This document shows positions 5,838-28,133 of a DNA stretch of 28,379 nucleotides, piece after piece. Both the position numbers and the translations under genes were made by a program. How positions within the stretch are numbered: the first letter of the stretch is position 1; each line of letters opens with the position of its first letter. Under the pieces are notes generated by a model. That model did not search any database, had not been told where the DNA came from, and saw nothing but the letters and a program-made list of their open reading frames with translations. Where the stretch lies: positions 1 to 28,379 of the IMG/VR virus record IMGVR_UViG_3300010885_012674. One strand, given 5' to 3'. The stretch comes from a virus.

Positions 5838-5838
5838 C

Positions 5839-6141: not shown

Positions 6142-6203
6142 GTAGTACTAGCAGTACCAAAAATAATAAGACCATGCACACCGTGTTTGGTCGATTTGGC
6201 ATC

Positions 6204-6216
6204 GGAGAATGAGTTG
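6204..6216 (+). promoter_or_regulatory. Ribosome binding site that places a TTG start
   Basis: GGAG at 6204-6207 lies 6 nt upstream of TTG at 6214-6216. No ATG or GTG in this frame gives a credible start, while TTG 6187 and 6196 lack a matching site. A 12-codon frame (ATG 6174 to TGA 6212) ends 1 nt before this TTG, so ribosomes finishing it could restart here. Confidence 0.6.
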
Positions 6217-8484: not shown

Positions 8485-9408
8485 ATGACTTCAATGACTC
8501 TGTTTAGCGGTAAATCCTCAGCCCTTGCTGAGAAGCTTAAAGGTAGCTTATCGGATACCCTGTCCGGTGGCGCAGGAAGTGGTTCACAGAACCGCCGCTT
8601 GTCAATCAAGGGTGGTGTGTTCCGTGAGTTGCTCAATGGTAAAGAGCACCGTGTAAGCGAAGACCGTGCGATGAATATCGTGATTGTCGATGCTGCACCG
8701 ATCAGCCGCATGTATTTTGCCGGAAGCTACCAAGAGGGTGAAGTAACCAAGCCCACATGTTGGTCAGCAGATACGCAAACTCCTGCCGAAGATGTACCGC
8801 AGGATAACAAGCAAGCAGCCCGCTGCATGGATTGCAAGCAAAACATCAAAGGCTCAGGTCAGGGTGAAGGTCGTGCTTGCCGTTTCCAACAACGCTTGGC
8901 TGTACAGCTTGAAGGCGAGATTGAGAAGCGTGAGGTGTACCAGTTGACGTTGCCATCGACATCAATCTTTGGTGCGGGTGACAAGAACAAGATGCCGTTA
9001 CAAGCATATGGTCGTCACCTGAAAGTTCACAATGAAGTACCGTCTGCGATTGTGACTGAGATGCGTTTTGATACTTCAAGCCCAACACCTAAGTTGATCT
9101 TCAAACCTATTCGCCGCCTTGAAGATGCGGAAATTGAGATTGTTCTTGAGATGCGTGAGCACGAAGACACAGCCAAGGCGATCACACTTACCGTTTCACA
9201 GATGGATGGTGTAGGTGCCGCGAAGAAAGATGATGAGCTGTTCGAGAAGCCCGTAGCAAAAGCTGCGCCAAAGCTTGAAGCACCGAAAGCTGAAGCCGTT
9301 GCCGAAGAGCCTATCGAAGAGCCTAAGAAGATGGCAAAGAAGACCGCAGCAGCACCGGTTGAAGGTAAGGCTGACCTTGCTGATATTGTAGGTGAATGGG
9401 ACGATTAA
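8485..9408 (+). CDS. Zinc-binding single-stranded DNA-binding protein candidate
   Basis: The protein has 307 residues, with AAGGAG at 8472-8477 giving a strong start. A central four-cysteine knuckle, C92, C114-x2-C117 and C132, would bind zinc and interrupts a beta-rich fold (residues 45-240). After residue about 245 comes a low-complexity Ala/Lys/Glu/Pro linker, then an acidic tip (ADIVGEWDD). A folded core, flexible linker and acidic C-terminal tip are the plan of bacterial, T7 and T4 single-stranded DNA-binding proteins, and T4 gp32 also has a zinc knuckle. No sequence match is claimed. The place next to the primase-helicase supports the role. A zinc-binding replication cofactor of another kind remains possible. 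Confidence 0.55.
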   Translation: MTSMTLFSGKSSALAEKLKGSLSDTLSGGAGSGSQNRRLSIKGGVFRELLNGKEHRVSEDRAMNIVIVDAAPISRMYFAGSYQEGEVTKPTCWSADTQTPAEDVPQDNKQAARCMDCKQNIKGSGQGEGRACRFQQRLAVQLEGEIEKREVYQLTLPSTSIFGAGDKNKMPLQAYGRHLKVHNEVPSAIVTEMRFDTSSPTPKLIFKPIRRLEDAEIEIVLEMREHEDTAKAITLTVSQMDGVGAAKKDDELFEKPVAKAAPKLEAPKAEAVAEEPIEEPKKMAKKTAAAPVEGKADLADIVGEWDD

Positions 9409-9540
9409 GTAGTTCGGGGCAAAAGCGGATGCTAGACCTAGCATGTAATGTGCAATTGGTTAAACATAGTCACCGGTTAATCGACTAGCTAGTGCAGCGA
9501 GTAGCCCCACCCCACCCACAATAACAAGCAAGGCGATGCC
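9409..9540 (+). other. Noncoding gap with two CTAG palindromes
   Basis: This 132-nt stretch is the longest gap in the window. It holds an inverted repeat ATGCTAG-ac-CTAGCAT (9429-9444) and a perfect 10-bp palindrome ACTAGCTAGT (9484-9493). Both centre on CTAG and are 55 nt apart. Near 9530 is AAGG, the ribosome binding site of the primase gene. I see no convincing promoter. Operator, origin or RNA-structure roles are all open. Confidence 0.55.
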
Positions 9541-12402
9541 ATGGACACAAAAGAATTTCTAGAAGCAATGCTTGGTGATGAAGGGTATTACTGCATCACA
9601 GGTATTGAAGAACTACACGGTGAAAAGCGAGACCCACTTGTAAAGCAAAAATTTTATACCGATCTTGATGAAGCAGTCGCCGCTGCACTTGAGCTTGATA
9701 TTCAGGATTCAATGAATGCGTACTTTGCATTAGCTACGTTTGAAGAGTCAGGTTCACGGCGTAACAACAACGTCAAACAATTACGATCATTTTTTCTTGA
9801 TTTGGATTGCGGTGCAACAAAAGATTACGAAACACAGGCGGAGGCCCTGCAAGGCTTACGTAACTTCTGTAAAGAACTTAAGCTGCCACGCCCCACGATG
9901 GTTAATTCTGGTCGTGGCATTCATGTGTACTGGTCTTTAACTGAACCGGTTGCTCGTGATATATGGTTGCCTGTTGCGGAACGATTGAAAGAATTATGTG
10001 TTGACCATAGTATGTATGCTGATGCTGCAGTAACATCTGATTCGGCGCGTGTGCTACGTGTTCCCGGGACCCATAACCATAAAGATACACCTGCTAACAT
10101 CGTAAAGTTTATTGGTGACCCTGCTCAGGCGGTGTCCTTTGAAAGCTTTCGGGACTTGCTTGGTGTTAATCCGTTAGCCCGTAAACGCTCGTATGTACCC
10201 CGTGAAATTGACCCCATCATGATGAAGTTGATGGGTAGTTATGTCAGCAAGTTTAAAACGATTATGCTCAAAACAGTCGCAGGTGAGGGCTGTGCACAAA
10301 TCAAGTGGGTTGCTGAAAATCAAACCACAATGTCGGAACCAATGTGGCGGGCGGGGTTGTCAATCGCAGCGTTTTGCGAAGACCGTGACAAAGCTATACA
10401 TAAAATTTCAACGCAGCACCCTGATTACTCGTATGATTCAACTGAGTACAAAGCATCGCAGATACGTGGACCTTATAGTTGCCAAACGTTTAACAAGTAC
10501 AACCCAAACATCTGCCCTGATTGCAAACACTGGGGTAAGATTACAAACCCGCTTGCTTTAGGGCGGGAATTATCAACGACTGAGGAAGAAGTTATTGTAG
10601 AGGACATCTCTGCTGACTTACCGAATACACCACCGCAGCAGTACACAATACCGAAGTACCCCACGCCTTACGTGCGTGGCAAGAACGGTGGCATATTCAA
10701 ACGAGTCAAAAGCGATGATGGTGAAATTGAAATACCGGTGTATCACCACGATTTATATGTCGTGCGCAGGTTAAGAGACCCCGAAATAGGCGAAGCGTTA
10801 GTTATGAGATTGCACTTGCCTAAAGATGGGGTTCGTGAATTTACGATACCGTATGCAGCAGCTACAGCAAAGGATGAGTTCCGGCGCTACATGTCCATGC
10901 ACGGTGTTGCTATTATGAAAATGGATGAACTTATGAACTACGTAACCACATGGGTAAACGATTTACAGATGACAACCGTAGCAGACGAGGCCCGTCGGCA
11001 GTTCGGATGGACAGACGATAACTTCACATCGTTTGTTGTCGGCAATATGGAAGTCTTTAAAGACAACATTACTGTGAACCCTCCTGCAAGCAATACCGCA
11101 GGGTTGTTTCCAGCGTTCGTACCGAAGGGTACGCTTGAGCATTGGTGCAAGACAATTGATTTTTACAACAAGCCCGGTTTTGAAGTGCACCAGTACATGT
11201 TCGGTATTGGATTTGGCTCTGTGCTGATGCAGTTTATGCCGATCAACGGTTCAATCTTTCACTTGCATAGCAAAGATACAGGCTTGGGTAAGACCACCGC
11301 TATGTACGCAGGTGCATCTATATGGGGCAACCCTGATGTGCTAGTGATGCTTGAGCGTGACACGTACAACTCGAAAATGAATCGTGCTGAGATTTACAAA
11401 AACTTGCCGTTCTATAGCGATGAGATGACTAACACCGCACCGAAAGACCTGAGTGATTTTGCGTATCAGGTTCCGAGCGGGTTGCAACGTAATCGTTTGT
11501 CACCCAAAGGCAACGCCGAACGCTTTCGTGGTGCGCCGTGGAAGTTAACAGTAGGTACGACAGGCAACACCGATATGCTTGAGCGTATCTCATCGTACAA
11601 GGCGTTACCAAAAGCTGAAGCACAACGGGTACTTTCGTATCGTGCACGTAAGATGGTGTTTGCAACTAAAACCGAGACCGATGTGTTTAGTGCCGACATC
11701 AAAGAGCACTACGGTCATGCGGGTGTGATGTTTATTCAGTACGTAATGAACAACGTCGAGTCAACCAGAGAGCTTATCTTGGCAACGCAGCAACGCATTG
11801 ATGCCGCAGCGGGTTTGCAAGCCGAGAACCGTTTTTGGTCTGTGCAAGCAGCCACCACAATTGCAGGATTGATACTTGCTAAGAAGCTTGGGCTTGTTGC
11901 GTTTGATATTGCTGCGATGTTTAAATGGATTGTTGAAGTTCTGCAGCAAGCAAAGGCTGACATGGAGTTTATGGGCGGCGATGTTGAAAGTATCTTGACC
12001 GATTACTTGGCTGAGAATTACAACAACGTGCTGCGCATCACCAGTACGCAAGACTTACGTAAAGACGCCAACAACATCGAGAAGGCTGTGCTACCTGAAG
12101 CAACACCCCGCATAGCGTTGGTTGCCCGCTACGAGTACGATGTAAAGACCATGTACTTGATGCCAAAACCATTAAAGACATGGTGCGCTAAGCAGCAGAT
12201 CAATTACACCGCATTGATAGATGGTCTTAAATCAGGTCGCACTAAAGCCAAGCGTGACAAGATACGACTAGGCAAAGGTACGCACGTGAATTTACCTGCT
12301 ACCGATGTATGGGTGCTTGACTTCACGGAGTTCATGGATGAAGGAAAAGAGCAGACACTCGCAACAGCGTCAACACTATTTGAAGAACCGACTCAAGAGT
12401 AA
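9541..12402 (+). CDS. AEP primase-DUF927 helicase fusion
   Basis: This is a 953-residue primase-helicase. The N-terminal archaeo-eukaryotic primase (RepB/PrimPol-like) domain shows motif I D87-x-D89 (FLDLDCG), motif II S123-G-x-G-x-H128 (SGRGIHVYW) and motif III with R170 to N179 (SARVLRVPGTHNHK). A zinc-binding cluster follows at C314, C325, C328 and H330. The C-terminal half is a DUF927-type AAA+/RecA-like helicase with Walker A at 577-586 (SKDTGLGKTT, K584) and acidic Walker B-like D627-E628 (FYSDEM). It would open the double helix and make primers for the family A polymerase. The start ATG at 9541 has AAGG 7 nt upstream. The gene ends in an overlap with the next frame. Confidence 0.92.
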   Translation: MDTKEFLEAMLGDEGYYCITGIEELHGEKRDPLVKQKFYTDLDEAVAAALELDIQDSMNAYFALATFEESGSRRNNNVKQLRSFFLDLDCGATKDYETQAEALQGLRNFCKELKLPRPTMVNSGRGIHVYWSLTEPVARDIWLPVAERLKELCVDHSMYADAAVTSDSARVLRVPGTHNHKDTPANIVKFIGDPAQAVSFESFRDLLGVNPLARKRSYVPREIDPIMMKLMGSYVSKFKTIMLKTVAGEGCAQIKWVAENQTTMSEPMWRAGLSIAAFCEDRDKAIHKISTQHPDYSYDSTEYKASQIRGPYSCQTFNKYNPNICPDCKHWGKITNPLALGRELSTTEEEVIVEDISADLPNTPPQQYTIPKYPTPYVRGKNGGIFKRVKSDDGEIEIPVYHHDLYVVRRLRDPEIGEALVMRLHLPKDGVREFTIPYAAATAKDEFRRYMSMHGVAIMKMDELMNYVTTWVNDLQMTTVADEARRQFGWTDDNFTSFVVGNMEVFKDNITVNPPASNTAGLFPAFVPKGTLEHWCKTIDFYNKPGFEVHQYMFGIGFGSVLMQFMPINGSIFHLHSKDTGLGKTTAMYAGASIWGNPDVLVMLERDTYNSKMNRAEIYKNLPFYSDEMTNTAPKDLSDFAYQVPSGLQRNRLSPKGNAERFRGAPWKLTVGTTGNTDMLERISSYKALPKAEAQRVLSYRARKMVFATKTETDVFSADIKEHYGHAGVMFIQYVMNNVESTRELILATQQRIDAAAGLQAENRFWSVQAATTIAGLILAKKLGLVAFDIAAMFKWIVEVLQQAKADMEFMGGDVESILTDYLAENYNNVLRITSTQDLRKDANNIEKAVLPEATPRIALVARYEYDVKTMYLMPKPLKTWCAKQQINYTALIDGLKSGRTKAKRDKIRLGKGTHVNLPATDVWVLDFTEFMDEGKEQTLATASTLFEEPTQE

Positions 12403-12688: not shown

Positions 12689-15600
12689 TTAGTTACCCTC
12701 GTACTCTTGCATACTTCTAAGAAACTCAGGCATCCGCGCCTTGCTGATACTGATACCACTCTGCGCCATCATCGTCTCTTTCATATGCTGCTTCATTGAA
12801 GCGCGGATTGTTTCGGCAGTCACAGCAACACCTTTGTACGGGTGCTTAGCGTTCCACTTCTGAATCTGCTCCATAACTTTTGACGCACCTTCCGAGTCAC
12901 CCTGCCTTGTAGCCATGTAGAACTCACGCAGCATCTTGGTACGGTGCTCTGTCTCGTACCGACTGATAGCCTTCTCGTTTGCGTTGATCTCAAGTTGCCG
13001 AGTGTATTCCGCAGGGGCAAAACCAAACGCCTGTGCACCAACGTTCCACGGTGATATTTCGCTTGTGATTGGGTCACCACGTAAAGTGTTAGCGCCCTCT
13101 GCACCATACCGTGTTGATTTAAGCGCATTGCCTAGCGTAGCGGGAAGCATCTGTTCAAGACCGCGCGAGAAGTGTCCTTCGTTGATCAGGTCAGCACCAC
13201 GTATCATGCGTTTAGCCGTACCGTATGCCGGCCCACCAACGAACTCAACTGCCATGTCCAAAGCTGTTTGCTTGTCTGACGAAGACTGCGATGGTTTAAA
13301 GATCATGTCGGTCAGCCCCACACGTGAGCCAATCTCAAGACCCGTTGCTGCGTTGAACAAGCCACCGTACGCTGTGTCCCCTGCGAATTTACGCATGACA
13401 GTATCGAAGTTGTCATCGTCATCGTCTTTGAACATATCGTAAAGCAATCGCACTGCACCATACAGCGGTGCGCCCCGCACACCTGCCATTAGCGTAGCCG
13501 AGCCTGACACCCAACCGAGTTGCTTCCATGCTTGCTTACGCACTTCAGGATCAGCACCGGTCATCGCATCTTTTGCGGTCTTGTACAACATGTAGTACTG
13601 TGTGACACCGTAACGTTTGTACATGAACGCAATGCGCCCAATCGAGCCTTGGGCAATGCTTGGCGCAGCCATGGCAGACGTACCACCGTTAAGCAGTTCA
13701 GTCGTGCGTAAAGCCTTGTCAAACGCTAGGTTCTCTTTTTCTTGACCTGACAACCCACGCTCAGCGGGTTTTGGGTTGTTGTCCAGCCGATCAAGCTCAA
13801 GGGTGTACGCAGCGGTCAACGCCACCTGCCGGTTCATGCGTTCGGTATGGTGCATCAAATACCCCATGAACGCATTGACTTTCGCTAATTTGCTACCACC
13901 CTTGCTCGTGTCCAATATATCTTTGGTAAGCGAACGCCCAAACTGCCCTGTCTCTTTACCGCGCTCAACCAATGTCTTCAAGCGACGTTTTTCAGGAGAT
14001 AAGTTGGGGTCATTGAAGTCATAATTTTCAATTGAGAACCCACCTCTCACTTCCTTACCATTCACCATGTGCGTAGTGCCACTACCTAAAAATGCGCCCC
14101 CCGCTGCAAAAATAGCTTGCGTTGATGCCGCAGGTCCGTATTGCCCCGCAAGATAAGGACCGATTACGATAGGGATAGATGTAAGGTTGACAGCGGCTGA
14201 TGAGATGTTTGCACCCAACGTCATACCGAACGTAGCGGTAGTCATCAAGTTTGACCACTCTGCTACATCAGGATTCATTGCAAAACTAGCACGGCGTTGG
14301 AATTCTGCTAAGAACTTGCGGCCCTCTTCCGTTGCACCAGTCGCATTAACATGTTCACGTGCCTTTGTTAACAATGAACGGACCTGACCGGCGGTTTCCA
14401 TGTTCGTAACTTGCCGAGCAAACGTATAAGGCTTGCGACTAAACACATCAAGCACATCTTCGTTAAAGCCGAGCGTACCTTTACGCTTGCGGAACCCCTG
14501 CGCGAACGAGGTCTCAGGCATCATGTCAATCCACTGCTCGATGACCTTATCCATTACGTTTTGGGGTACTTTGTTTATCTGCATCGTATTCACGATGGTG
14601 TTCATAAACGAACCGGCTGGGGTGTTCTTGTAGTTGAACTCAGATAGTTTTGAGAACTCCTGTATGTGCATAGCCCCTTCTGCTTTGGCTTCTGCAATAG
14701 CGTCTGCACGATCCTTTGGATTTTCAAATTGCCGCACGATAGGGGTAGGTGCGTTAGGCAGCTCGTAAGACAACCGATACTCGCCCTTACGCTCAAAAGG
14801 TATGTAACCCTTGATGCTACCCATCTGAGTAAACAGTTTTTGAATGATGCTGGATGCGTGTGCTGAAGTTGCGGGATCGGTAATTGAATCTTTGACCATC
14901 GCCCCTAAGTTTGCTGCCCCATCATCACGCAACTGTTTGTATGTATCAAGGATGTCCTTGTACACAACTTTTGCAGGCGCATCTAATTTGTTAAACTTAT
15001 CCACAAGCTCATCAAACGCTTTAAGTTCGGCAGGGTCTTTCATAAATGCTTTACGTGCTCCTGCGATATTAAACAGATCGACCCCTGCACGTGAAGCGGT
15101 GTTTGCCACATCCTTAAAATTGGTTTTAACCGAATCCGACTGCTTATTCCACCACTTGATCGCATGGTCGTTTACCGCTTCAATTGCCTCTAGGCGTTTG
15201 TCTAACCGACCATCATGTTTCTGCACAATGTTGTTTAGCTGCGCGGCTTGTGGCAACGTGTTATCCACACTTGCAACTTCAGCAAAGGCTGGCAACGGTA
15301 AAGTAGTCAGCATTGCGCCCTGCGCACCTCTTGGTAACGTAGTAGTAATGCCGTGGTGTATCTCGTTCTTAACCTGATTGCTTGTGTATGGGATGTTGTT
15401 AATCACACCGTCAATCAAATTGCTCATCACACCCGCGCCAGTACCATTAGCCGATGCCATGTACAACGCTTCGCCTACACGCGAGTCAGGGGCAGGTGAG
15501 ATAGCCGCTTCCATCAGTCGGTCAACTTGGTCGAACGCTGATTCGACAGCCTTGGGTTCCGCACCCATTAAACGCCGTACAAAGTTCTTTATGATGTTCG

Positions 15601-18600
15601 TGAATTTTTGTAATGCTGAAATCGCCGTACCATCGGGATTGATTCCGGCAAGCTTGGTACGAAACTCTGGGTTACCCCACGCCTCAGCAACAAACTCTTG
15701 CACACTTGTTGCACCGTAAGCTGAATCAAGGGATGGCTTGACCTTGTTGAACAGAGCCGTAAGCTGTTTGGTAACAGGATGGTTTGCGTTGTCCAGCACG
15801 TGTGATAACGCACCGTGCACAGTCTCATGAATTAACGTGTGGTTGTTTAACCCAGTCTTTGAGTCCAACGTAATTGTGTTGGTTTCAGGGTCGAACATGC
15901 CGGATATAGGCTTACCCGCATCGTCTTTTAAATTATCAACAACTTTGACTTTGGTATCTGTTACACCACGCATGAGCAACTTGAGGATGCGCCCCGTCAA
16001 GCCACCGGTTTGGGCAGCGAGTGTGTTCAACGCATCAGTAAGATTGCCTGCTTGTAATTGCGCCTGCACGTTGTCGGGTAGGTCCCCGTCTAATGCCTCT
16101 TCAAGCTTTAACTTCTTACCCTTACCTTTACCCCCTGTTGCGGCTACTGGTGCAGGTTGCCCCCATTGAGCTACCAAGTGCGCTATGGCAGAGTTTGCTA
16201 CCGCATCATTCTTGGCTTTTAACCTAGCAACTTCAGCTTCTTGCTCGGCAGCGGTGAGTTTATTGTCTTGCTCTCCTTTGGGTAAAACTTTGGCTTCGGG
16301 TGCGGCTTTGGTTTCAGGCGTAGTTTTGGTTTCAGGCGCAGGAGTTTTGGGCGTGGCTTCGGCTTCCGCTTCTTCCTGCGCAGCCTGTTGTTTTGCTGCT
16401 TCAGCATCAGCCTTTTGCTTAGCGGCTTTAGTTGCAACATCAGCTTTTTGCTTAGCGGCTTTAGTTGCAACATCAGCTTTTTGCTTAGCTGCTTGCTCTT
16501 GCGTAGCTTTTTGCTTAGCGGCTTCAGCTTTAGCGTCAGCTTCGATGTCAGCTTTAGGCGTAGTTTTTGTCGCAGGAGTATTGGCTGCTTTTTTAGCACC
16601 ACCAACATAATCCTTACGTGCGTTTGCAAGGTCGCTAGGTATAAAAAATTCTTTTTCTGGTCTGCGCGAATATGCAGCGGGATTATCCCCTACGTCTTTG
16701 CCACCAGTTTTATTTTGCATATTAGAAACGCGATATTTTTCTACTTCCGCAGTAGGAACATCAACGTACGTCAAACGCCCATTGGGGTGCTCATTTTTTA
16801 AATACCAATTAGCTTCGTTGATGTCATCAGTAAACCACCGGTTTGACGCTGCTAACGTATTTTTGTAGTTATCAGATTCTTTAATCCAACTAGGAATATT
16901 AGGTTTGGGAGTATTGGAAGTAGTTTCTGCCCGATACAAACGAGTTGTTTTTGGTTGTGGGTAGGGTGCAAACGTACCACCACGTGGTCCTTGCAGATCA
17001 ATCTGGGCAAACGGCGGTTGTTTTAATATATCGTTAATTCGTTTTACAGCGGTGCGCGAACGTGGGTCACTGCGAGCGGCAAAAGCTTTACGCGCCTCTT
17101 CAAGTTGTTTGGCAACGTACGCACGATCAGCAGGCTTTGCTAAGTCTTTACCCAAGATATTTTGACGCACCGCAGCATTATTTGGTAAGAACAACCAATC
17201 AACCGACTCCTGATTTATGAGCGTATTGGGTTGAGCATCTGGCAATTCTTGCTCGTTAACCTGTGTACCTACACCCTGCCGAATACCCTCTGCCCGGGAG
17301 GGTACTGGTGTTTGTTTACGTGAAAACAAGTCAAGCTGTTGTTGTTGTGTTGGCTGTCCGGCTTGAATCGGTGAAATAGGTGCAGCACCTTGAGACGCTT
17401 TGGATAACCCAGCATCCGCCAAGTCACCTTGGGCATCGGTCAGGTCGCGCTGAATGCTTGACTGTTGAGCGATCTTATCTAATTCAGCCTGCTTTTGTGC
17501 CTCGCGTTGTTGCTCAGCAGCGGTGTACCCCATCTCGCTTTGCATTTGCGTCAAAGGAGCGTTTTGCAAAGTTGGAGCGGGCGCAGCGGGCGCAAATTGG
17601 AGTGCACCCTGCCTAGAGTCAGCACCAGCACCGCTTTGCATTTCTGCAAGCGTATCATCGCGTTGTTCGTTTCGTGCTTGCTTATAAGCAGCAATACCTG
17701 CTTCTTTGGGTGGTACACCTACGTCAATAAGCGCCTGTGTTAATTCTCTAGTACGTATTTCTACAGGGTCAGCTTGAAGCGCAACACTGCGCTCCGGCAC
17801 AATATCGCCCAGCAAGTCAGGTGATTGAGAGCCGAAAGTTTGTTCTAACTCTGCTTGACGCCGCTCACCAAAGTCCAAAGGCAACGATTCAGGACCGGCA
17901 GCGGTGGGTTCTACTGGTTCAGCAGCGGTGGGGGCCGGCGCTGTTACTGGCGCGGCGGGGCCTTGCATCTCATCAGGCAGCAGGGGGAGTTGTTCTGCAC
18001 CAGCAACCCGTCGGTTGTACTCTGTTTTAGCGGCTTCTTCTTGTGCGATTCTAGCTTCACGAGCATTTAATTCACGTTGCGCACGACCTCTTGCGCCTGC
18101 ACCGCTTACGCCACCAAACGCACCGCCAAGCACCGCACCGCCGATCAGGCTGTCTAGGTACTCTTCACGCGCTCCGGCATCTATGGTGCTGATACCCGCT
18201 TGCAAACGCTCAAGAAATTGCTGACCTACTTCAGTAAGACCTTCAACACCAGCAACCTTACCGCCGGTCATGCCTACGTTAGTTAATAAGTTGCGTTGTG
18301 CAATCGCCTTTAACTGCTCTTCTGTAAGTTCTTTACCTGCAGATTTAAAAATCCTGCTGATGCCGGGCATCATTCTAAATGACACAACGTCTAACAACGC
18401 TTGTGGAACTGCTGCTGCACCCGCAGCTATGATGTCTGTATCAGCTAGTCTGACACCGTTTTCTTGCACTTGCCGAGACAAGTTAGAGCCTGTAAATTGT
18501 GCACCCGATACCAAACCCGCACCAAGAGCGGCAGCAACACCAGTACCAAGACCAAGCGCACCAGCTACCGGAGCCGTACCAGCTAACACACCTGCAGCAA

Positions 18601-19057
18601 GCGGTGCTAGTGTATAGGCAGCAGACTGCCCAGCAAGTTCTTTAAACTTAAGCCATGGGTTTTCAAGCCAACCTTCTTCAGTACCTTTAAAGGTATTTGC
18701 CGCAGCTTGTTCGCTTTCCGCAGCAGAAGCTTCAGCCTTCTCCGTGTCCATGATGCCGGTACGACCAGCCAGCCGCTTAGTATCCGCAGCAAGCTGATAC
18801 CCGCTAGATTTTGCTGCTGCTAAGAACCCACCTTCGGGAATGGGCTTTGCCGCCTCTTGCGCTGCTTTTTCTGCTGCTTCTTGTATCGCCCTAGATTCTT
18901 CTTCACGAGCTTTGCGCATAGCCGCAAGAGAATTTGGTGCTGGTTCAGATTGCAACGATGGCAGAATATTTGTTTCGATAGCTTTTTGTATATCGTCCCG
19001 AGACATCCCATCGGGAAAATTCATAGGCCCAAAGCCTTCGATGTTAATAGTCTGCAT
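12689..19057 (-). CDS. Giant polyvalent virion/ejection protein with HExxH and ART-like regions
   Basis: The protein has 2122 residues and is the last gene of the late operon. The N-terminus (GFGPMNFPDGMSRDDIQKAI) is a motif seen at the start of phage internal virion proteins. Residues about 150-190 and 300-325 are hydrophobic Gly/Ala-rich segments that could cross a membrane. Residues about 703-790 look ADP-ribosyltransferase-like (LYRAE with R709, then RWFTDD). Residues 830-930 are an Ala/Lys/Gln coiled coil. HETVH (1077-1081) is a zinc metallopeptidase motif, with E1121 or E1125 (QEFVAEA) as third ligand. The C-terminal 750 residues are helical and resemble large-polyvalent-protein domains. 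The likely role is a DNA-ejection protein delivered into the host with enzymes attached. TAAGG upstream of the ATG is the ribosome binding site. Confidence 0.8.
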   Translation of the reverse strand: MQTINIEGFGPMNFPDGMSRDDIQKAIETNILPSLQSEPAPNSLAAMRKAREEESRAIQEAAEKAAQEAAKPIPEGGFLAAAKSSGYQLAADTKRLAGRTGIMDTEKAEASAAESEQAAANTFKGTEEGWLENPWLKFKELAGQSAAYTLAPLAAGVLAGTAPVAGALGLGTGVAAALGAGLVSGAQFTGSNLSRQVQENGVRLADTDIIAAGAAAVPQALLDVVSFRMMPGISRIFKSAGKELTEEQLKAIAQRNLLTNVGMTGGKVAGVEGLTEVGQQFLERLQAGISTIDAGAREEYLDSLIGGAVLGGAFGGVSGAGARGRAQRELNAREARIAQEEAAKTEYNRRVAGAEQLPLLPDEMQGPAAPVTAPAPTAAEPVEPTAAGPESLPLDFGERRQAELEQTFGSQSPDLLGDIVPERSVALQADPVEIRTRELTQALIDVGVPPKEAGIAAYKQARNEQRDDTLAEMQSGAGADSRQGALQFAPAAPAPTLQNAPLTQMQSEMGYTAAEQQREAQKQAELDKIAQQSSIQRDLTDAQGDLADAGLSKASQGAAPISPIQAGQPTQQQQLDLFSRKQTPVPSRAEGIRQGVGTQVNEQELPDAQPNTLINQESVDWLFLPNNAAVRQNILGKDLAKPADRAYVAKQLEEARKAFAARSDPRSRTAVKRINDILKQPPFAQIDLQGPRGGTFAPYPQPKTTRLYRAETTSNTPKPNIPSWIKESDNYKNTLAASNRWFTDDINEANWYLKNEHPNGRLTYVDVPTAEVEKYRVSNMQNKTGGKDVGDNPAAYSRRPEKEFFIPSDLANARKDYVGGAKKAANTPATKTTPKADIEADAKAEAAKQKATQEQAAKQKADVATKAAKQKADVATKAAKQKADAEAAKQQAAQEEAEAEATPKTPAPETKTTPETKAAPEAKVLPKGEQDNKLTAAEQEAEVARLKAKNDAVANSAIAHLVAQWGQPAPVAATGGKGKGKKLKLEEALDGDLPDNVQAQLQAGNLTDALNTLAAQTGGLTGRILKLLMRGVTDTKVKVVDNLKDDAGKPISGMFDPETNTITLDSKTGLNNHTLIHETVHGALSHVLDNANHPVTKQLTALFNKVKPSLDSAYGATSVQEFVAEAWGNPEFRTKLAGINPDGTAISALQKFTNIIKNFVRRLMGAEPKAVESAFDQVDRLMEAAISPAPDSRVGEALYMASANGTGAGVMSNLIDGVINNIPYTSNQVKNEIHHGITTTLPRGAQGAMLTTLPLPAFAEVASVDNTLPQAAQLNNIVQKHDGRLDKRLEAIEAVNDHAIKWWNKQSDSVKTNFKDVANTASRAGVDLFNIAGARKAFMKDPAELKAFDELVDKFNKLDAPAKVVYKDILDTYKQLRDDGAANLGAMVKDSITDPATSAHASSIIQKLFTQMGSIKGYIPFERKGEYRLSYELPNAPTPIVRQFENPKDRADAIAEAKAEGAMHIQEFSKLSEFNYKNTPAGSFMNTIVNTMQINKVPQNVMDKVIEQWIDMMPETSFAQGFRKRKGTLGFNEDVLDVFSRKPYTFARQVTNMETAGQVRSLLTKAREHVNATGATEEGRKFLAEFQRRASFAMNPDVAEWSNLMTTATFGMTLGANISSAAVNLTSIPIVIGPYLAGQYGPAASTQAIFAAGGAFLGSGTTHMVNGKEVRGGFSIENYDFNDPNLSPEKRRLKTLVERGKETGQFGRSLTKDILDTSKGGSKLAKVNAFMGYLMHHTERMNRQVALTAAYTLELDRLDNNPKPAERGLSGQEKENLAFDKALRTTELLNGGTSAMAAPSIAQGSIGRIAFMYKRYGVTQYYMLYKTAKDAMTGADPEVRKQAWKQLGWVSGSATLMAGVRGAPLYGAVRLLYDMFKDDDDDNFDTVMRKFAGDTAYGGLFNAATGLEIGSRVGLTDMIFKPSQSSSDKQTALDMAVEFVGGPAYGTAKRMIRGADLINEGHFSRGLEQMLPATLGNALKSTRYGAEGANTLRGDPITSEISPWNVGAQAFGFAPAEYTRQLEINANEKAISRYETEHRTKMLREFYMATRQGDSEGASKVMEQIQKWNAKHPYKGVAVTAETIRASMKQHMKETMMAQSGISISKARMPEFLRSMQEYEGN
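16413..16478 (-). repeat. Two 33-nt tandem repeats in the giant protein gene
   Basis: Two identical 33-nt units (16413-16445 and 16446-16478) are followed by a diverging third. They encode an 11-residue KQKADVATKAA-type repeat in the coiled-coil part of the 2122-residue protein. Length change by slippage would keep the frame. Confidence 0.85.
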
Positions 19058-19065
19058 GGCTTACC

Positions 19066-22000
19066 TTACTTCCAAGTTTGGGTTGCTGGATCGTATGTTG
19101 GAATACCGCCTTTACCTGAAAGTGTAGACATACCCAAAGCTTTTGCGGCGTTAGCATCTAATTCTAGTATACGCAAATCAAACGGTTTACTAGCTCTATC
19201 GCGTTCGACAGCTATTTGAGCTTGCAAAACTCTAAATGCTTCTTTAGCTTTTGGGTCTGCTTTTGGACCAGTAGCTTGCATACTAAGCATTTCGTACTGA
19301 CTTGTAAACGGTTTAAGAGCCGCATTTATTGCTGCTGTTTTTTGAGCTTCTACCCGAGTAGCTGACTCATTAAACCCTCTGTAAGCCGTTAATGCGTTTT
19401 GCGCTCTGGCATCATCTCGACGCGATTCTAGTTCTGCAACGCGTATTGTCATGTCATTACGCAAGCGAGCTTGGTTAATCTCAAATTCTTGAGCACGTTG
19501 AGTACGGTTATCTTCTGCAATTTGCAGTCGAGTCTTAGCGGCTTCCGCAGTAGCCTCTCTAGACGCACCAGCAGTGATACCAGCAGCTTGAATCTTGCCT
19601 TGGAAGTCCATAACAGTGTTGAAGTACTTGCCATACATCTCAGCAGCAAGTTTTTTATTGCCTTGCTTGAGCGACAACTTGTATTGACTAAATGCATCTT
19701 GAGCTTCGTCAGCTTTCTCAATGGCTTTGCGAGCTTCGGCTTGTGATGAGAAGTATTGCTTACCGCCTGCTTCCGCTAAACGCCTAATGCCATCTGACAA
19801 GTTCATGCCACCCATCATTGCGATACCCCCTGCAATCATGGCTTCGCTCATTACACCGCGTTCTTGCTTTTCAGCACGTTGCAGTTTACGTTCAGTACGT
19901 TTTTGCAAATCGGCAAGAACAGCTTTGTCTTCAGGATCAAACTCTGCGGCTTTCGCTACGTTTGCTGCGTACGTACCCCAACCAAATATGTCGCCAGCAC
20001 CGGCAACACCGGGAACCGTAGGCACAGCACCAAACCCACCAGCACCGGGAGTGCGAGGTGTAATAGCGTTAACAGGCGCAGTAGTACCAGTACGGGGTGC
20101 ACCACCAGCGGGAGTACCAACATCAGTAATACCACCCCCAGCAGGAGGTACAGCGGAAGTAGGAATAATGCCACCACCAACAGGAGCACCAGTGGCAGGA
20201 GTAGCCCCAGCAACAGGAGGTATAGCGGTGATGCCACCTAAATTAGGGTATTGCCCCGGACCTTCTTGAGCGTTGCCCGCATACATTTGTGCGGCAGTGT
20301 CAGCACGATTTTGTTGATCTTGTGCCATAGCTTGACGTTCGGCAAACAACTCAGTATCTCGGGCTATTTCACGCCCTGATGCATCCCAATTTGCCAATTC
20401 TGGAATTTGCCGGGCTTGTTGATCTTGTGCCACACCTTGACGTTCAGCAAACAACTCGGTATCTCGGGCTATTTCACGCCCTGATGCATCCCAATTTGCC
20501 ATCGTTTTATCGTTTGCCGGTGCCGGTATAACTTGCGAACGGGGTACTTTTGCGCCGCGTAAACCAAACATACCTTCTAACGATGGTTTTTTCTCTTTTA
20601 CATCTTCCAGTCTGACATCTGAACCAAACGTATCGTCTTCAGTAGCATCTTTACTACCCCCAGCAAGCGCAACAATCCCCCCGCCAGCCGCCATCACGGG
20701 CTGCTCAGCAATACCACCTTGCCCAGCAACTTCTTGAGCTACCGTCTGTGTTGGCATTTCGCCTTGAGGTTGACGCACACTAGCGCGTCTTGTCATCTCA
20801 GCTTTAACTTCAGCAAGTGCAACCGCATCTTTTACTGTACGAGCATAAGCTTGTAACTGCCCGTCAGTTAACTGCGACAACTTACTAGATAACGCAGCAG
20901 GGCTAGTAGCCGCCACCGCCCGAGGATCAACAACAGGTTGACCGCCCATAGCATAGCCCTGCACCGCGCCGCCACGGGCATAGCTCATCAAGCCGCCTTC
21001 CTTAGCGCTTTTATTCGTTGCACCATAAGCAGCAAGACCCGCGCCCAATATCTGAGGAGCCATAGCACCCGTGTTCTGGTACATAGTTTGTGAGGCTTGT
21101 GACATTGGTAAACCGCGCATCATGTCAGACTGGAACGCAAGCTGCTTGTATGGGTAGTTCATCTGGTCTTGGTACTGCTGGTAGGCAACGTTTAGACCCT
21201 GCTGTTGCAACGCTTGTTGCTGCGCACCGGCTTGCATCTGTGCTTGGTTGATTGCTTGTTGTTGACCAAACTGAGTCTGACCTAACGCGCCAAGTGTTGA
21301 AGCTGCCGAACCTGCCAAACCTAACCCAGCCAAACCGTACTGACCTGCACCCACCGCGCCTTGAACACCTTGCATACCAATGTTTGCACCAGCAATGCCC
21401 ATGTTACCGGCTGTCTGAGCGCCTTGCATACCCAATTGACCACCACCAATCATTAACTGACCGGCTTGGTTAGCACCTTGCATACCAAGACTAGCACCTT
21501 GCATACCCTGTGCTGTACCCGCTAACTGGCGGTCAACACCAGCGAGTCCGACCTGAGCACCTTGCATACCCTGTGCTGTGCCCGCCAATTGCGTATTAAC
21601 ACCTTGCAAACCTGTCTGTGCGCCTTGAAGCCCAGTCAAATAGTTTTGGTTAGCACCTTGTAAACCTGCGAGTCCAACTCCTGCACCTTGCATACCCAGC
21701 GAGGCGGCAGCTTGCATGTTTCTGTTAGCAACATCATAGGCAGTGTTGTAACCCTGACCAATCGCTTGGTTCATTGCGATATTCTTGTTGCGCTGGTTTT
21801 CCGCAAAGATTAACGCTTCACGGCTACCACCAAACGCACCTGCTTTAGTTGCGTTGCTCTGCCCCTGTGCACCCGAGATGCCATACTGACGTTGCATTTC
21901 AGCTAATTGTGGCTGCAACGATGCTTGTAAGTAAGGGTTCATGTACCCTTGAACCGCATACGGATTTTGTGCGCCCTGACCGTAGCCCAGACCAGCTTGC

Positions 22001-22644: not shown

Positions 22645-23048
22645 ATTGATACCCCTAAAATAATGTACTTTTCAGTGAACCCAAAGCGAACTAACAATTT
22701 GGCAACCGAGTCCCTTGTTGCACACTCAATTGTTGTTGCGCCGTTTGCTCGACAAATATTTTCAAGCTGCTTAAACGTGTCTTCGTTAATAATAAATTTA
22801 CCGCCCGTGCCCGTTACAAAAGCAACACGTTTTGTTGGCTTGTTGACAAACTCTACCGTCATCGCACCACAAAGTTTTTGCGCGTCATCTGTTGCAACTA
22901 ACAATAACCACTGACCTGTACACACGTACATTTGAATTTGGTCTAGGGTGTAGTCATCCTGAGCGTACTGTTGCGATTCCGCTAAAAAATCTTGAACTAA
23001 ACCCCAAGTTTGTGCGGCAAACGCAACAGGTACGTGCTGTATCTTCAT
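22641..23048 (-). CDS. GNAT-fold-like phage protein, 135 aa
   Basis: The protein follows the pattern of small phage GNAT-like proteins in the head-tail region: a helical start (WGLVQDFLAESQQ), DQIQMYVCTGQWLLLVATD, CGAMTVEF, then GGKFIINEDTFKQLENICRA, GATTIECATRDSVAKLLVRFGF and a final strand (YIILGVSI). The acetyl-CoA-binding Q/RxxGxG/A loop is not clear: GTGGKF stands in its place. Catalysis is therefore uncertain. T7 gp13 is an example of a virion-morphogenesis protein with a GNAT-like fold, so a structural role is at least as likely as acetylation. It is coupled by 4-nt overlaps to the genes on both sides. Confidence 0.7.
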   Translation of the reverse strand: MKIQHVPVAFAAQTWGLVQDFLAESQQYAQDDYTLDQIQMYVCTGQWLLLVATDDAQKLCGAMTVEFVNKPTKRVAFVTGTGGKFIINEDTFKQLENICRANGATTIECATRDSVAKLLVRFGFTEKYIILGVSI

Positions 23049-25756
23049 ACTGGCAAGTGTTTACGGGCTTTAGAATCCACTGCAACTTTGTCTTTACCGA
23101 TAGACTTCTTGCGCCCACTTTGCACACGTTCCATCATGGCATACAGTCGCTTAGCACCGGCATCTGTAGACCCATTTCCCAGTTCAGAAACAATCCGAGC
23201 AGGAACGACAAACTCACCATCAGCAAGACGAGCAGGCTGCTTATTACCAATTTGAGCAGGAATATCATCGCTGACTCCATCGCCGGGGCCTTTAAGTAAA
23301 CGCCCGCCATCAGAATAGCCACCAAGATCGTAGATGCCGCCACCCGCAGCGTAGTTTTGGTTAGGTGTACCTTGTAAACTGTTCAAAGCGATCATAGCAT
23401 CGTAGTCACCGCCCTGTGCTTTAGCCATCAACTCTTTCATAGCAGATGGGCTTTTTTGTGCGGCTGCAGCATACGACTGCACGGCAGCTTGGCGGCTGTT
23501 AGTAATGCCACCGCCGTACGCAAAGTTTTGCGGCTTTTGCATTGGGTATTGAGGACCTTGATTGAACTGTGCCATACCATCAATAGCATTATTTTGATCA
23601 TCAAATCCAGTGTAGCTAGAGCCAATGCCACCACCTGCTGCGTAGTTAATTAAACCGCCTTCTTTTTTGTCGTTGTGTGATACAAGACCCTCTGAAACAT
23701 ACGTATGCGCTTGGTCAACATTAAATTTAACCACGCTACCTTCACCAATGTATTCCATACCAACAATGCGTTTGTTATCAGTAATACCGCGAATAACATC
23801 GCCAAGTTTAATGTGCAACATTTGTTTCCATGAGTCATCGACCATTAAAAATTTATGGGTGTCAGACACTTTTATAGTGCTGCTATCTTCAAACTTAAGC
23901 AGCAACTTTGGTTGCGTAATAATGTCTGCGGCAAGTATTTCAAAGTTTCCGTACTCAAGAGTGTCTTGATGAGGGGCGTAAACAAAATCACCAACGCAAA
24001 TTTCTCCTGCTTTTTTCTGCTTGCCGTTAGCCATTAAAACTAAAACATCGGGGTCAACGCATCCGCCGCCACCGCCGCCACCGCCACCACCGCCACCGCC
24101 ACCGCCACCACCGCCACCTTGGTCAGCGTTGTACCCGGCACGTTGTTGATCTTGTAATAGTTGCTGTTGCGCTGCTAAGTTCGGCATCGGTACTGGCATG
24201 GCTCGTACAGGAGCTGTAGCGTAACTACGTGTAGCTGGGTTGTATGTATAAGTAGGAAGCATACCGGGCGCAGCGGGCAAACCGCCGACAGGTGCAATAG
24301 ACGCGGTAGGAGCTGCAGGAACCGGTGCATTAGGGTTTGCAGCCATGTACTCAGGAGAAGTCATGATCCCGTAAGTAATTTGATCCGGTGTTGCGTTTGC
24401 GTTTGCTGCAAAACCTGTTTGGTCTGGGGCGCGTCCTAAATATTTTTGGAACAACTGAGTCGTTGTATCGGCATTTGCTGGCAAAGGTGCAGCGGGCGCA
24501 GCAGGCGCGGGGCGCAAATGCTGAGGAACCATCGCTGCTAGTTGCGGTTGAACAACGTACTCTTGCTGTGCGCGTTGCCCCAACATGTTGTTGTAGTCCG
24601 TGACCGCTTGGGGCACTTGATTAACTGGCGCTGTGTACTGCTGTTGTGGGTTAACATACAGGGCTTGCATATTTGGCACAACAACGTTATTTGCTTGCAT
24701 CGGCGGTACTTCAATGTTTCTTGCGTTTGCAGTCGCGGTGCGTGTTGCGGCTAAATAATCAGCTAATACAGGTTGTTTTTTAACTGGCGCGGTAGGTGTT
24801 GCAGCGGGATCAACAGGCACATCAGCAATACCACCCTCTGCCATGTAACGAGTACCCATGATGCCACCTTCTGCAGCCATAGGCATGAGTTGTGAACCGT
24901 AGTCACCTGAAGCAATCGGTGTTCCCGCAGTCATTGTCTGATTAAAGTACGGTGTGCCCGCACCGGTGTAGTTAGGATTGCGAGTCTGGCTATACGTGTA
25001 TGGTCGAACATACCCAGCGTTGGCTGTCTGCTGTTGTTGAGCAGAGTTACCACCAAACAAATTACCACCCATAAGCGCAGGAGCCAGCGCCGCACCGATA
25101 GGCATCATGTTGCTCTTAAGGTAGTTGGTGTCAAACTTGGTAGCTTGGAACCCCTTGGTCATAGCATCCCAACCAGTGGGTGCAGTTGCCGCCGTGTTTG
25201 CCTTAGCTGCTGCGCTAATAACATCTGCTGGGTTAGCTGCCCCACTTACTGAACCCTGCAGTGACTGCAATGTTTCAGGCGACAGATTTGCAAAGTTTTC
25301 TGGAGTCAAGAAGTTAACTGCATCTGCGGCGGTGCCTGCTCCAAATGCGGTACTCGCGGCATTCCCCGCTGCTGTTACTTCCGGCACCATCGCTGCTGCG
25401 CCAGCATTCATAATTCCACCAGCCAAGCCCGCGCCACCAAACGCGCCAAGCCCTGCCATCAAGCCTTTGTTCAGGTCTTTAGTAAGGAGTGCTGTGCCAC
25501 CGCCGACAATACCCGCTGCCATAAGAGGACCAACGCCGGGGATCATTGCTAAGCCCGCACCTGCAACCACAGGCAAAATAGCGTCTAAGAACCCAGCTTC
25601 AGGCAACCCCGTCTGCGGGTTAATCGACAGACTACCGCCGTGTTGTTTAGCCATGTGTTGCAGCGCACCAACTTCTTTTGGTGACATGTGCACAAGTACG
25701 GAATCGGTGCCGCGCCCTTGGGCGGCTAAATGCTGGGCTACTTTATCTAAGCTCAT
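23045..25756 (-). CDS. Structural protein containing an internal Hint (intein-like) domain, 903 aa
   Basis: The N-terminus (MSLDKVAQHLAAQGRG, then GGSLSINPQTGLPEAGFLD) resembles uncultured-phage structural proteins. Residues 55-130 are hydrophobic and glycine-rich. Residues about 430-470 (YLGRAPDQTGF, then ITYGIMTSPEYM) match the DUF4214 pattern. Residues 547-565 are 19 glycines, followed by a 130-residue Hint domain (C566-N695). After it come EGG/AGGG segments and a C-terminal unit with GDGVSDDIPAQI and ARLADGEFVVPARI, reminiscent of tape-measure-like proteins. Cleavage at both ends of the Hint domain would release a 565-residue N part and a 208-residue C part. The ATG at 25756 overlaps the upstream stop by 4 nt. 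The exact virion position is unknown. Confidence 0.85.
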   Translation of the reverse strand: MSLDKVAQHLAAQGRGTDSVLVHMSPKEVGALQHMAKQHGGSLSINPQTGLPEAGFLDAILPVVAGAGLAMIPGVGPLMAAGIVGGGTALLTKDLNKGLMAGLGAFGGAGLAGGIMNAGAAAMVPEVTAAGNAASTAFGAGTAADAVNFLTPENFANLSPETLQSLQGSVSGAANPADVISAAAKANTAATAPTGWDAMTKGFQATKFDTNYLKSNMMPIGAALAPALMGGNLFGGNSAQQQQTANAGYVRPYTYSQTRNPNYTGAGTPYFNQTMTAGTPIASGDYGSQLMPMAAEGGIMGTRYMAEGGIADVPVDPAATPTAPVKKQPVLADYLAATRTATANARNIEVPPMQANNVVVPNMQALYVNPQQQYTAPVNQVPQAVTDYNNMLGQRAQQEYVVQPQLAAMVPQHLRPAPAAPAAPLPANADTTTQLFQKYLGRAPDQTGFAANANATPDQITYGIMTSPEYMAANPNAPVPAAPTASIAPVGGLPAAPGMLPTYTYNPATRSYATAPVRAMPVPMPNLAAQQQLLQDQQRAGYNADQGGGGGGGGGGGGGGGGGGGCVDPDVLVLMANGKQKKAGEICVGDFVYAPHQDTLEYGNFEILAADIITQPKLLLKFEDSSTIKVSDTHKFLMVDDSWKQMLHIKLGDVIRGITDNKRIVGMEYIGEGSVVKFNVDQAHTYVSEGLVSHNDKKEGGLINYAAGGGIGSSYTGFDDQNNAIDGMAQFNQGPQYPMQKPQNFAYGGGITNSRQAAVQSYAAAAQKSPSAMKELMAKAQGGDYDAMIALNSLQGTPNQNYAAGGGIYDLGGYSDGGRLLKGPGDGVSDDIPAQIGNKQPARLADGEFVVPARIVSELGNGSTDAGAKRLYAMMERVQSGRKKSIGKDKVAVDSKARKHLPV
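23672..24061 (-). other. Hint (Hedgehog/intein-like) autoprocessing domain
   Basis: This is a 130-residue insert, C566 to N695, with no homing endonuclease. Block A is CVDPDVLVLMANGKQ with GDFV, the N3-like block is SDTH (H634), block F is AHTYVSEG (H684) and block G is VSHN (H694-N695). All residues for acyl shift and Asn cyclisation are present. The residue before is Gly565 and the residue after is Asp696 instead of Cys, Ser or Thr. This is the arrangement of A-type bacterial intein-like domains, which cleave more than they splice. The DNA is visibly richer in A/T than its flanks, consistent with an acquired module. Confidence 0.88.
24062..24118 (-). repeat. 19 consecutive glycine codons
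   Basis: All 19 codons from 24062 to 24118 are GGN, mainly GGT and GGC. They lie directly before the first Cys of the Hint domain. The tract would make a flexible tether. Trinucleotide slippage could change its length without breaking the frame. Confidence 0.95.
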
Positions 25757-26004
25757 ACTTTGACCTTTAAGACATTACCGGCGGTTGTGTCACGGTACAC
25801 ATCGCCAACCCGTAGGTCAGCAAGACTGGTTTGGGTCGGGAGTTTATCTATATTCAAGTTTAAACCACTTGCTGCAGAAAATCCCGGATTATCTAGCTGC
25901 GAAAAATACAGACGCAATACGTTTGTTAACTGCTCAAGGTAACGTTGCTCATACTCAACAGGAGGTGTTGGCAAGTTTGGGGATTGTGTTGTGCCGGTAC
26001 TCAT
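25753..26004 (-). CDS. Small structural-region phage protein, 83 aa
   Basis: The start is ATG at 26004 (MSTGTTQSPNLPTPP), which shares one base with the upstream stop (TGATG). The frame opening at 26007 is TTG and is not needed. The protein reads EYEQRYLEQLTNVLRLYFSQ, DNPG, then LPTQTSLADLRVGDVYRDTT. This matches a small family always seen near tail genes of uncultured phages, with a helical start and an LPT-LRxGD(V/I)(Y/W) end (memory). Possibly a tail or adaptor accessory protein. Confidence 0.65.
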   Translation of the reverse strand: MSTGTTQSPNLPTPPVEYEQRYLEQLTNVLRLYFSQLDNPGFSAASGLNLNIDKLPTQTSLADLRVGDVYRDTTAGNVLKVKV

Positions 26005-28133
26005 CAACGCCGCCCGTCATTGCGAATATCAATTCTGGGAGTTCCCAATTGCCATTGCACACCAAGTTCTCCAGACTCAATCCTAAAACTCATCTGGCGA
26101 CCACGCAGACGGGTGTACACCTGCCCATCAAAAAGCTGCACGTTGTATGCCCGAACTGCTGTGTAGTTGCTTGCACTTTGCACTTCAGGAATATTTGCTA
26201 CCCCATATGGCGTACCTGAGTTTTGACGGGGTTTGACCGTCATTGTGACAAACGGCTGGTCAATGTTTGAGCCGTTGAAGTTAACGTCAGGCAAGATACG
26301 CCACACAAACCCGAAGTTATGCCCGTCACCAATGTCAAAGTCAGAAGACTGAATGTAAGCCTCAATTGGCAGTGAAGTTGTGCCAGCAACGTCATTAACG
26401 TCAGACTCGTGGTACAGCACACGGTTGTTGTAATCCGTAGCCATAGGGTATTCCCTAATACCTGAATCAAGCCATGCAGTCCTTGCCATTGTGCCGTAAT
26501 ACCAAACTTTATCTAGGTAGTTGTAAATGACATACCTGTCGATGGTGTCTGAGTTTAATGAGCAATAGAACCACCAAATCTCGTTGTAACCCTCGTTACC
26601 GCCAGCAAACACTTGATACGACTGATTCTGGTTGATGTCCTCAAAGACATACTGACGCAGCGAACTAGCCAGCGTGTCAACACGACCTGAGTATTGGTAG
26701 AACTTACCATTGCCCATCCAGTAGGTCACGTTGTTGACTGTGTAGATTGAATTCGGTGACATGATGGAAATGTTGTCCATCAAAAGCTGGAACGACCACA
26801 CATACGGTGCGCCAACATACTGCATTGAGTACAACGCCGAGTCAGTCCAGATTAAAATCTCTTGGCGAGTATTGACGTAAGTAACGATAGATGAGCCGTG
26901 CGAAAGCCCAAACTCACCCGCCTGATTGGTTGGGTCAGGAACCCAGTCGTACTGATTGGCTTGGTCTGACCAGCGTACCAGCATCGGGTTAAAGGCGGAA
27001 TTAGGTGTTCCGCTTACATATGGGTTTGCACCAAAACAAATAACAAACCGTTGAATTGACGATGCTGAAATCTCAAGCGTCTTGTTTGGAACGTACTGAC
27101 CAGCGTAACCTTCTGTTGTTGACAAATCATTTAGCAACTTAGCACGGGTAGTCAGCCCATCAGCACTCTTCCAATAGTAAACACCGCCGTTGCGTGGTGC
27201 AATAATTAAGTCTTGACCGTAGTTGTCGTTTGACCAGAGGCGTAACTGAGCGCCAACAGCTTGAGTAGAAGACGCACTACCCCAGCCGCCACGACCCCAG
27301 ACACCCGCACCCCAGCCTGTGCCGATAACGTAAATGTCCAAACCTGTATTGATTTGATACGCAGCAATCCCAACCGTGCCGCCACCAGTGGTTACCGCAC
27401 TAGTAGAAAACACGCCCGCCACATTGAATGTGTACTTATCTACAGTAATGACGTTAAAGACTTGCTGCTCAACGTTAAGCTGACCCGTTGTAAACCCGCC
27501 TGTAGCGGTTAACCCGCTAAAGGTCACAAAGTCATTTTTAACCACACCATTAGCAACATCAGTCACGGTAACCGTCGAGCAGCCTACCGCTGCGCTCGTA
27601 GCATGAGTAGCCGCAGTTGTACCGTTGTAACCCCGCACAAGCCCTGTCAGGGTGTTGGTTGACTTGCCTGTGTAGTAGATTTGCTCTGAATCAATCTTGA
27701 TAATGCCCGGCGAGTTTTGGAACGACGCACCAGAAGTCAGCACCAAAGATGTTGCTGTAGCTGTGATACCGCCATTGAGCGTACTGTACGCAGTAGCCAA
27801 CGGGTTGCCAGTGCTAGGAGGTACAGCGCCCAGCATGGGGTTTACGGTCTTTCTGATTGGGGTGATGTCGTAGTAACCACCACCGTACTCAATGTAATAC
27901 TTTAAATTTGTGCCAACCCCAAGGTAGTTTGTACCCTCAAGGTTAATCCAGTTCCACATTGACCGAGCTGTGCCGAGATACGAACCGTTGGATAAGCGAG
28001 TCCACCCGCCGATCTTTTCAACCTGACCCGAGCGAAAACGAATGTGATCGCATTCATACCAACCACCCTCATTGGCGTAGTTAGTACCCTCACGGTTTAC
28101 ACCGGGTCGAAAGGTCAGTTTCTGTAATGGCAT
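26004..28133 (-). CDS. Virion structural protein, tail-hub or stabilisation type, 709 aa
   Basis: The N-terminus, LTFRPGVNREGTNYANEGGW and CDHIRFRSGQVEKIGGW, is a conserved start of phage structural proteins in uncultured tailed phages. The rest is beta-rich with many aromatic and glycine repeats (GTNYLGVGTNLKYY, GTGWGAGVWGRGGWG, WMGNGKFYQYSGR), as expected for a beta-propeller tail component comparable in role to P22 gp10. No direct homology to P22 gp10 is claimed. A Ser/Thr/Gly-rich section (about 120-250) includes SGATA-like insert strands. The ATG at 28133 has AAGG 7 nt upstream. A tail, adsorption or hub role is inferred from neighbours and composition. Confidence 0.75.
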   Translation of the reverse strand: MPLQKLTFRPGVNREGTNYANEGGWYECDHIRFRSGQVEKIGGWTRLSNGSYLGTARSMWNWINLEGTNYLGVGTNLKYYIEYGGGYYDITPIRKTVNPMLGAVPPSTGNPLATAYSTLNGGITATATSLVLTSGASFQNSPGIIKIDSEQIYYTGKSTNTLTGLVRGYNGTTAATHATSAAVGCSTVTVTDVANGVVKNDFVTFSGLTATGGFTTGQLNVEQQVFNVITVDKYTFNVAGVFSTSAVTTGGGTVGIAAYQINTGLDIYVIGTGWGAGVWGRGGWGSASSTQAVGAQLRLWSNDNYGQDLIIAPRNGGVYYWKSADGLTTRAKLLNDLSTTEGYAGQYVPNKTLEISASSIQRFVICFGANPYVSGTPNSAFNPMLVRWSDQANQYDWVPDPTNQAGEFGLSHGSSIVTYVNTRQEILIWTDSALYSMQYVGAPYVWSFQLLMDNISIMSPNSIYTVNNVTYWMGNGKFYQYSGRVDTLASSLRQYVFEDINQNQSYQVFAGGNEGYNEIWWFYCSLNSDTIDRYVIYNYLDKVWYYGTMARTAWLDSGIREYPMATDYNNRVLYHESDVNDVAGTTSLPIEAYIQSSDFDIGDGHNFGFVWRILPDVNFNGSNIDQPFVTMTVKPRQNSGTPYGVANIPEVQSASNYTAVRAYNVQLFDGQVYTRLRGRQMSFRIESGELGVQWQLGTPRIDIRNDGRR

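Follow-up and report, generated by a model that had tools for sequence, protein, structure and literature searches.

What can an intein-like (Hint) domain do in a phage protein when the residue that follows it (+1) is Asp and not Cys, Ser or Thr? The locus that raises this question lies in a 28,379-base IMG/VR virus record from a freshwater phage, hereafter called the window. A sequence-only reading had described a Hint without an endonuclease, directly behind a 19-glycine tether in a phage structural protein, and had proposed that the protein is cut in two at the ends of this domain. The features that the argument needs are the following.

23045..25756, minus strand: the 903-residue, Hint-bearing ORF (P0001)
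25577..25756, minus strand: N-terminal motif GRGxDxxLVHMxPxEVxxLQ...GGSLxINPxTGLPEAGF (residues 1-60)
24062..24118, minus strand: 19-glycine tract (residues 547-565), in mixed GGT/GGC/GGA codons
23672..24061, minus strand: Hint, or A-type BIL-like, domain (C566-N695, 130 residues), from profile, AlphaFold and Foldseek
24059..24061, minus strand: C566, predicted N-S acyl-shift nucleophile
23855..23857, minus strand: H634, the block-B histidine, in the motif SDTH
23705..23707, minus strand: H684, the block-F histidine
23675..23677, minus strand: H694, part of the terminal His-Asn
23672..23674, minus strand: N695, predicted site of Asn cyclisation
23669..23671, minus strand: D696, the +1 residue
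23663..23671, minus strand: C flank D696-K697-K698, with K697 (+2) as predicted acceptor lysine
23048..23317, minus strand: 90-residue C-terminal module YSDGG.LL.GPGDGVSD.IPA...LADGEFVVPARIVSELGNGST (residues 814-903)
26004..28133, minus strand: gene for a P22-gp10-like head-to-tail stabilisation or virion structural protein (phrog_3287, E = 3e-68)

The ORF translation bears out the architecture first described: the Hint follows exactly 19 glycines in a 903-residue protein, C566, H634, H684, H694, N695 and D696 all stand at the residues claimed for them, and the domain is complete without an endonuclease, with C1, the block-B and block-F histidines and the terminal His-Asn within 130 residues. 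The interval originally reported, 23672-24118, is the poly-Gly plus the Hint. Upstream of the Hint lies an N part of 565 residues with a poly-Gly end, and the C part after N695 has the 208 residues ascribed to it. An identical 903-residue protein with 19 Gly is present in two further IMG/VR contigs, which makes it unlikely that the tract is an assembly slip.

Pfam or PHROGs alone did not serve as an identification of P0001, as the PF14890 match of its Hint is weak (E = 0.033, below the family cut-off) and a PHROG search of the protein gave zero matches. The sequence-only reading had suggested a Hint/BIL profile search and a structure model, and the former, weak with Pfam, succeeded with a family profile: built from 22 related Hints, it matches the C. 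thermocellum bacterial intein-like (BIL) domain 2LWY (E = 1.3e-28 among PDB chains) and many inteins, with BILs first (103 bits vs 72 bits for gp41-1), while the window Hint sequence alone matched inteins and BIL about equally and both weakly. The AlphaFold model of the Hint is confident (mean pLDDT 92.4, pTM 0.85) and matches both BIL and intein structures; its top Foldseek match is the Tetrahymena BIL2 (6Y75, E = 4.8e-11, TM 0.86), followed by DnaB mini-inteins with similar scores.

Conservation points to a complete domain that probably works. C1, the block-B His and the terminal His-Asn are invariant across the 22-row alignment, and the block-F His (H684 in the window) is present in most, not all, rows. 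The three invariant elements are also kept in 7/7 Hint-bearing members of the host family, two of which acquired their Hints independently. Furthermore, the Hints of the window and of its closest relative (L004) differ by a dN of 0.22 and a dS of 1.87; the resulting dN/dS of about 0.12, a rough value with dS near saturation, gives rough support for purifying selection on the domain. A catalytically dead Hint retained as a structural domain would fit the distance from characterised Hints (about 24% identity to terminase inteins), but this same retention of catalytic residues, including in independently acquired copies, makes it a highly improbable explanation.

The domain is best read as an A-type BIL, judging by its Hint fold with blocks A, B, F and G, its His-Asn end with D696 and not Cys/Ser/Thr at +1 (Ser in the relative L004), and its place in a variable linker of a non-conserved protein, with 130 residues and no endonuclease. 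A-type BILs (Amitai 2003; Dassa 2004; reviewed in PMC4031507) share with the window the Hint fold, the N-terminal Cys, the His-Asn end, the lack of an endonuclease and of a +1 nucleophile, and the siting in variable regions of non-conserved proteins. The window differs from them in its host, a probable phage virion protein, in the poly-Gly before the Hint and in the Lys at +2. Class-1 mini-inteins (Ssp DnaB, gp41-1, Npu DnaE; PF14890) resemble the window Hint in fold and in blocks A, B, F and G, but they carry Cys/Ser/Thr at +1 and occupy conserved enzyme sites, whereas the Hint of the window is followed by Asp and lies in a linker; a class-1 identity was ruled out on the Asp at +1. The best named phage matches, the terminase inteins of Corynebacterium phages C3PO, Zion and Stickynote, span C566-N695 at 23-25% identity, but they reside in the terminase large subunit. 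In the papers on phages CBB and phiCbK, a Hint or intein is mentioned for terminase and ribonucleotide reductase only.

As for the host, the P22-gp10-like gene (phrog_3287, with relatives annotated stabilization protein) and a small ORF immediately precede the P0001 gene, which is followed by a GNAT-like gene and two long genes. The order gp10-like gene, P0001, GNAT-like gene and P0002-like gene is mostly kept in L004 and in a second relative, L144. A protein of phage DSL-LC04 that is annotated as tail tape measure protein has both the N-terminal motif and the C-terminal module, and the N-terminal motif is also found in MW202753, DSL-LC04, L246, L249, L251 and other relatives. P0001 is thus, from gene order and relatives, a probable ejection/tape-measure-like virion protein; the label of phage structural protein given to it earlier agrees with the gene order, while P0001 itself lacks a PHROG match, and we keep the label as an inference. 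Elsewhere in the window, a 2122-residue ORF (12689-19057) has a C-terminal part that matches the DarB-like antirestriction family phrog_10089 and contains a 33-base tandem repeat (16405-16494), and a 105-base tandem repeat (20311-20501; 1.8 copies, 95% matches) lies inside the 1192-residue ORF P0002.

IMG/VR contains at least 559 relatives of the C-terminal module, and we counted Hints in the best 80 of these. In 77 of the 80 the Hint is absent and the N part and the module form one uninterrupted chain; the three with a Hint are the window's own virus, L004 and L246. Four further Hint-bearing members (L144, L278, L336 and L351) were recovered via their Hints. The Hint flanks in P0001 look low-complexity, and the host-family Hints are all placed in a variable low-complexity stretch before the C-terminal module. 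Forcing these Hints into one clade lowers the log-likelihood by 164 units (AU p = 6e-7), so that the site has been occupied at least three times. We propose that the Hint is an optional occupant of the variable linker of this probable virion protein. One 714-residue ORF (L306) shows the reverse of the window layout, with a SEGEFVIPADVV-type module at the N-terminus and the Hint near the C-terminus.

Such a distribution raises the possibility of a passenger, a selfish or decaying mini-intein that sits in a tolerant low-complexity linker and is excised harmlessly with zero benefit to the phage. Its patchiness (3/80 of the best of at least 559 relatives), the independent gain of Hints on at least three occasions (AU p = 6e-7), the missing endonuclease and the insertion in variable Gly/Pro/Ala-rich linkers are all in keeping with this. 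Self-homing is however impossible without an endonuclease, and the catalytic residues are kept at a low dN/dS. The chemistry of a passenger overlaps with that of the mechanism favoured below, benefit being the sole difference; we regard it as possible, if doubtful. A homing mini-intein was rejected, having no endonuclease and a host family whose Hints are not monophyletic.

We then compared the flanks of related Hints. The 19-glycine tether is exactly as described but it is not conserved in relatives, where the upstream flank is Gly/Asn-rich (L004), Gly/Pro/Ala-rich (L144) or Gly/Ala/Asp-rich (L278). Because the window's own clade includes members with Pro-rich or mixed flanks, we rejected the poly-Gly as an essential feature; on these comparisons, the tether appears to be one form that a variable, low-complexity flank can take and not a conserved part.

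Poly-Gly nevertheless seems to be a recurrent associate of Hints in other phage tail proteins. We scanned IMG/VR for the C-terminal Hint motif without requiring Gly, with the results being samples among the matches listed; the first scans for poly-Gly Hints were left out of this comparison because they are biased by their own pattern. Among the matches listed, 36/37 long inteins (>200 residues) carry Cys/Ser/Thr at +1 and 29/33 short Hints carry another residue there, and the upstream sequence is Gly-rich in 28 of the 33 short Hints vs 2 of the 37 long inteins. Hosts of the short Hints that PHROG names are the central tail fibre J, along with other structural proteins of the tail or virion. 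Gly-tethered short Hints of tail proteins (phrog_31 tail fibre J, phrog_2048; 129-155 residues) resemble the window in having poly-Gly directly before the Cys and a non-nucleophile at +1, but differ in host, in Hint clade and in a +1 that is often Gly, Ala or Lys. At several loci (L010, L018, L067, L081 and similar ones) the Hint lies within the N-terminal poly-Gly of tail fibre J (phrog_31), often laid out as GGGGGGG, then C...HN, then GGGGGK. In a 199,927 bp viral contig (L040), two different ORFs (8600-10111 and 2881-6990) both have a Gly-tethered Hint at their end, followed by no more than 8 residues. Six bacterial ORFs (L260, L269, L270, L276, L266 and L275) combine a signal-peptide-like start, Gly4 or more and a Hint ending in HN-KG, and three of them (L260, L270 and L276) carry two or three Hints in tandem.

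On the other side of the Hint, the Asp at +1 noted earlier is present as D696 but is not conserved: relatives have D, S, M, K or V there, and what is conserved instead is a Lys at +1 or +2. In the window this is K697 at +2, with K698 adjacent. Lys occupies +1 or +2 in 20/20 rows of the window's Hint clade, within which the +1 residue changed at least 9 times and the Lys switched from one of these two positions to the other at least 4 times. On these alignments, the constant feature beside the Hint is the Lys at +1/+2, rather than the glycines before the Hint or the residue that follows it. One Hint close to the window's, in a 1674-residue phage ORF (L319), stands at the C-terminal end of its protein, with GGGGGGGGG before it, C...SDTHKFLM...HN within it and IKEYESWNSVF after it.

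To extend the count, viral scans and cellular genomes were pooled into 90 clusters. A Lys at +1/+2 was found in 48/63 clusters without a +1 nucleophile vs 2/27 with Cys/Ser/Thr (Fisher p = 7e-10), a pattern which is post hoc and concerns related rows and rough clusters. The Lys background is about 4%, and Arg takes the place of this Lys in 0 clusters. Of the 15 clusters in the 63 that lack it, four have a Lys at +3 to +7; the other eleven have Gly or Ala at +1 and count against a Lys rule. Furthermore, where the tail after HN is 15 residues or shorter, 24/25 tails contain Lys, some being merely K, KD, KG or VKK, and the sole tail without it belongs to an ORF cut by the contig end. In the cellular genomes, 14/15 Hints without a +1 nucleophile have the Lys at +1/+2; this sample was searched after the pattern had been noticed, with an A5 profile that contains six upstream Gly columns, and is partly separate, two of its Hints having been seen before.

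These results bear on the fate of the protein. Classical splicing had been called unlikely, and we agree: with D696 at +1 in place of Cys/Ser/Thr, class-1 splicing is not expected. The proposal that followed, cuts at Gly-Cys and Asn-Asp with the parts staying separate as virion maturation and the processing perhaps timed to assembly or ejection, fits the Asp at +1 and the prevalence of cleavage products from type-A BILs (PMC4031507, PMC7664689). Type-A BILs can however also ligate: after formation of an N-terminal thioester and cleavage at the Asn, attack by a free amine is proposed to join the parts, although cleavage products dominate (PMC4031507). BIL2 is moreover reported to ligate through lysine, its splicing forming a K(epsilon-NH2)-C-terminus isopeptide (PMC8616854). 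In addition, the one Hint-less chain in 77/80 of the best of at least 559 module relatives favours rejoining over permanent cutting, and the Lys at +1/+2 is retained far above background, also in tails so short (1-3 residues) that cutting them off would yield nothing of use. Cleavage thus stands as a reaction open to the domain, but as the final fate it appears rather unlikely.

We favour, as the reading with the better chance, that an A-type BIL Hint processes the host protein so that the N and C parts are ligated, plausibly through a Gly-Lys isopeptide, with some cleavage. We infer the activity of the domain, the order of its steps, the lysine attack, the rejoining and the virion role as follows. 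The Gly565-Cys566 bond would be converted to a thioester on C566, with H634 assisting. As +1 is not Cys/Ser/Thr, the thioester would then be taken either by an amine of the C flank, with the K697 side chain (K698 being adjacent) as the likeliest candidate and the alpha-amine liberated on D696 as an alternative, or by water. Cyclisation of N695, assisted by H694, would free the C flank. The Hint would thereby be removed and the 565-residue N part ligated to the 208-residue C part, plausibly via the Gly-Lys isopeptide, while some of the protein would simply be cleaved.

Together, the Lys pattern and the lysine isopeptide reported for BIL2 single out K697 as the foremost acceptor candidate of the window. 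The Tetrahymena BUBL BIL2 (PDB 6Y75/6TMM) is also the best Foldseek match, but it is just 14% identical to the window Hint, is flanked by ubiquitin-like domains and is zinc-activated, and the lysine described as its nucleophile belongs to the downstream ubl5, where the window candidate is K697. Against an acceptor role, the Lys could instead aid folding or cyclisation, and L004, because it has Ser at +1 plus Lys at +2, could splice conventionally.

BIL2 is also described as dispensing a ubiquitin-like domain to a Ras GTPase and other substrates (PMC8616854), which suggests a different route: lysines of other virion or host proteins might attack the Gly thioester, so that the N part becomes covalently attached to them. 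Most Hints in the set have a Gly at -1/-2, which would suit this, although the search pattern introduced some bias into the sampling of Gly. The conserved Lys however lies in cis, directly after the Hint, with zero partner indicated, and we judge such intermolecular conjugation very unlikely.

The new and testable element is the conserved lysine after the Hint, as read from these sequences; it turns a Hint of no clear role into a specific, cheap prediction that rests on one lysine. Tentatively, and against rather than with the odds as we see them, most His-Asn Hints of phages and bacteria that lack Cys/Ser/Thr at +1 might use the +1/+2 Lys as acceptor and form Gly-Lys isopeptides, giving branched proteins; the window protein would then be one example, and the Tetrahymena BIL2 a special case rather than an oddity. 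If the prediction is false, the conserved lysine behind these Hints still needs explaining. If it is true, it would account for how intein-like domains work without the usual nucleophile, a new ligation tool would be on offer, and phages would make virion proteins with isopeptide branches.
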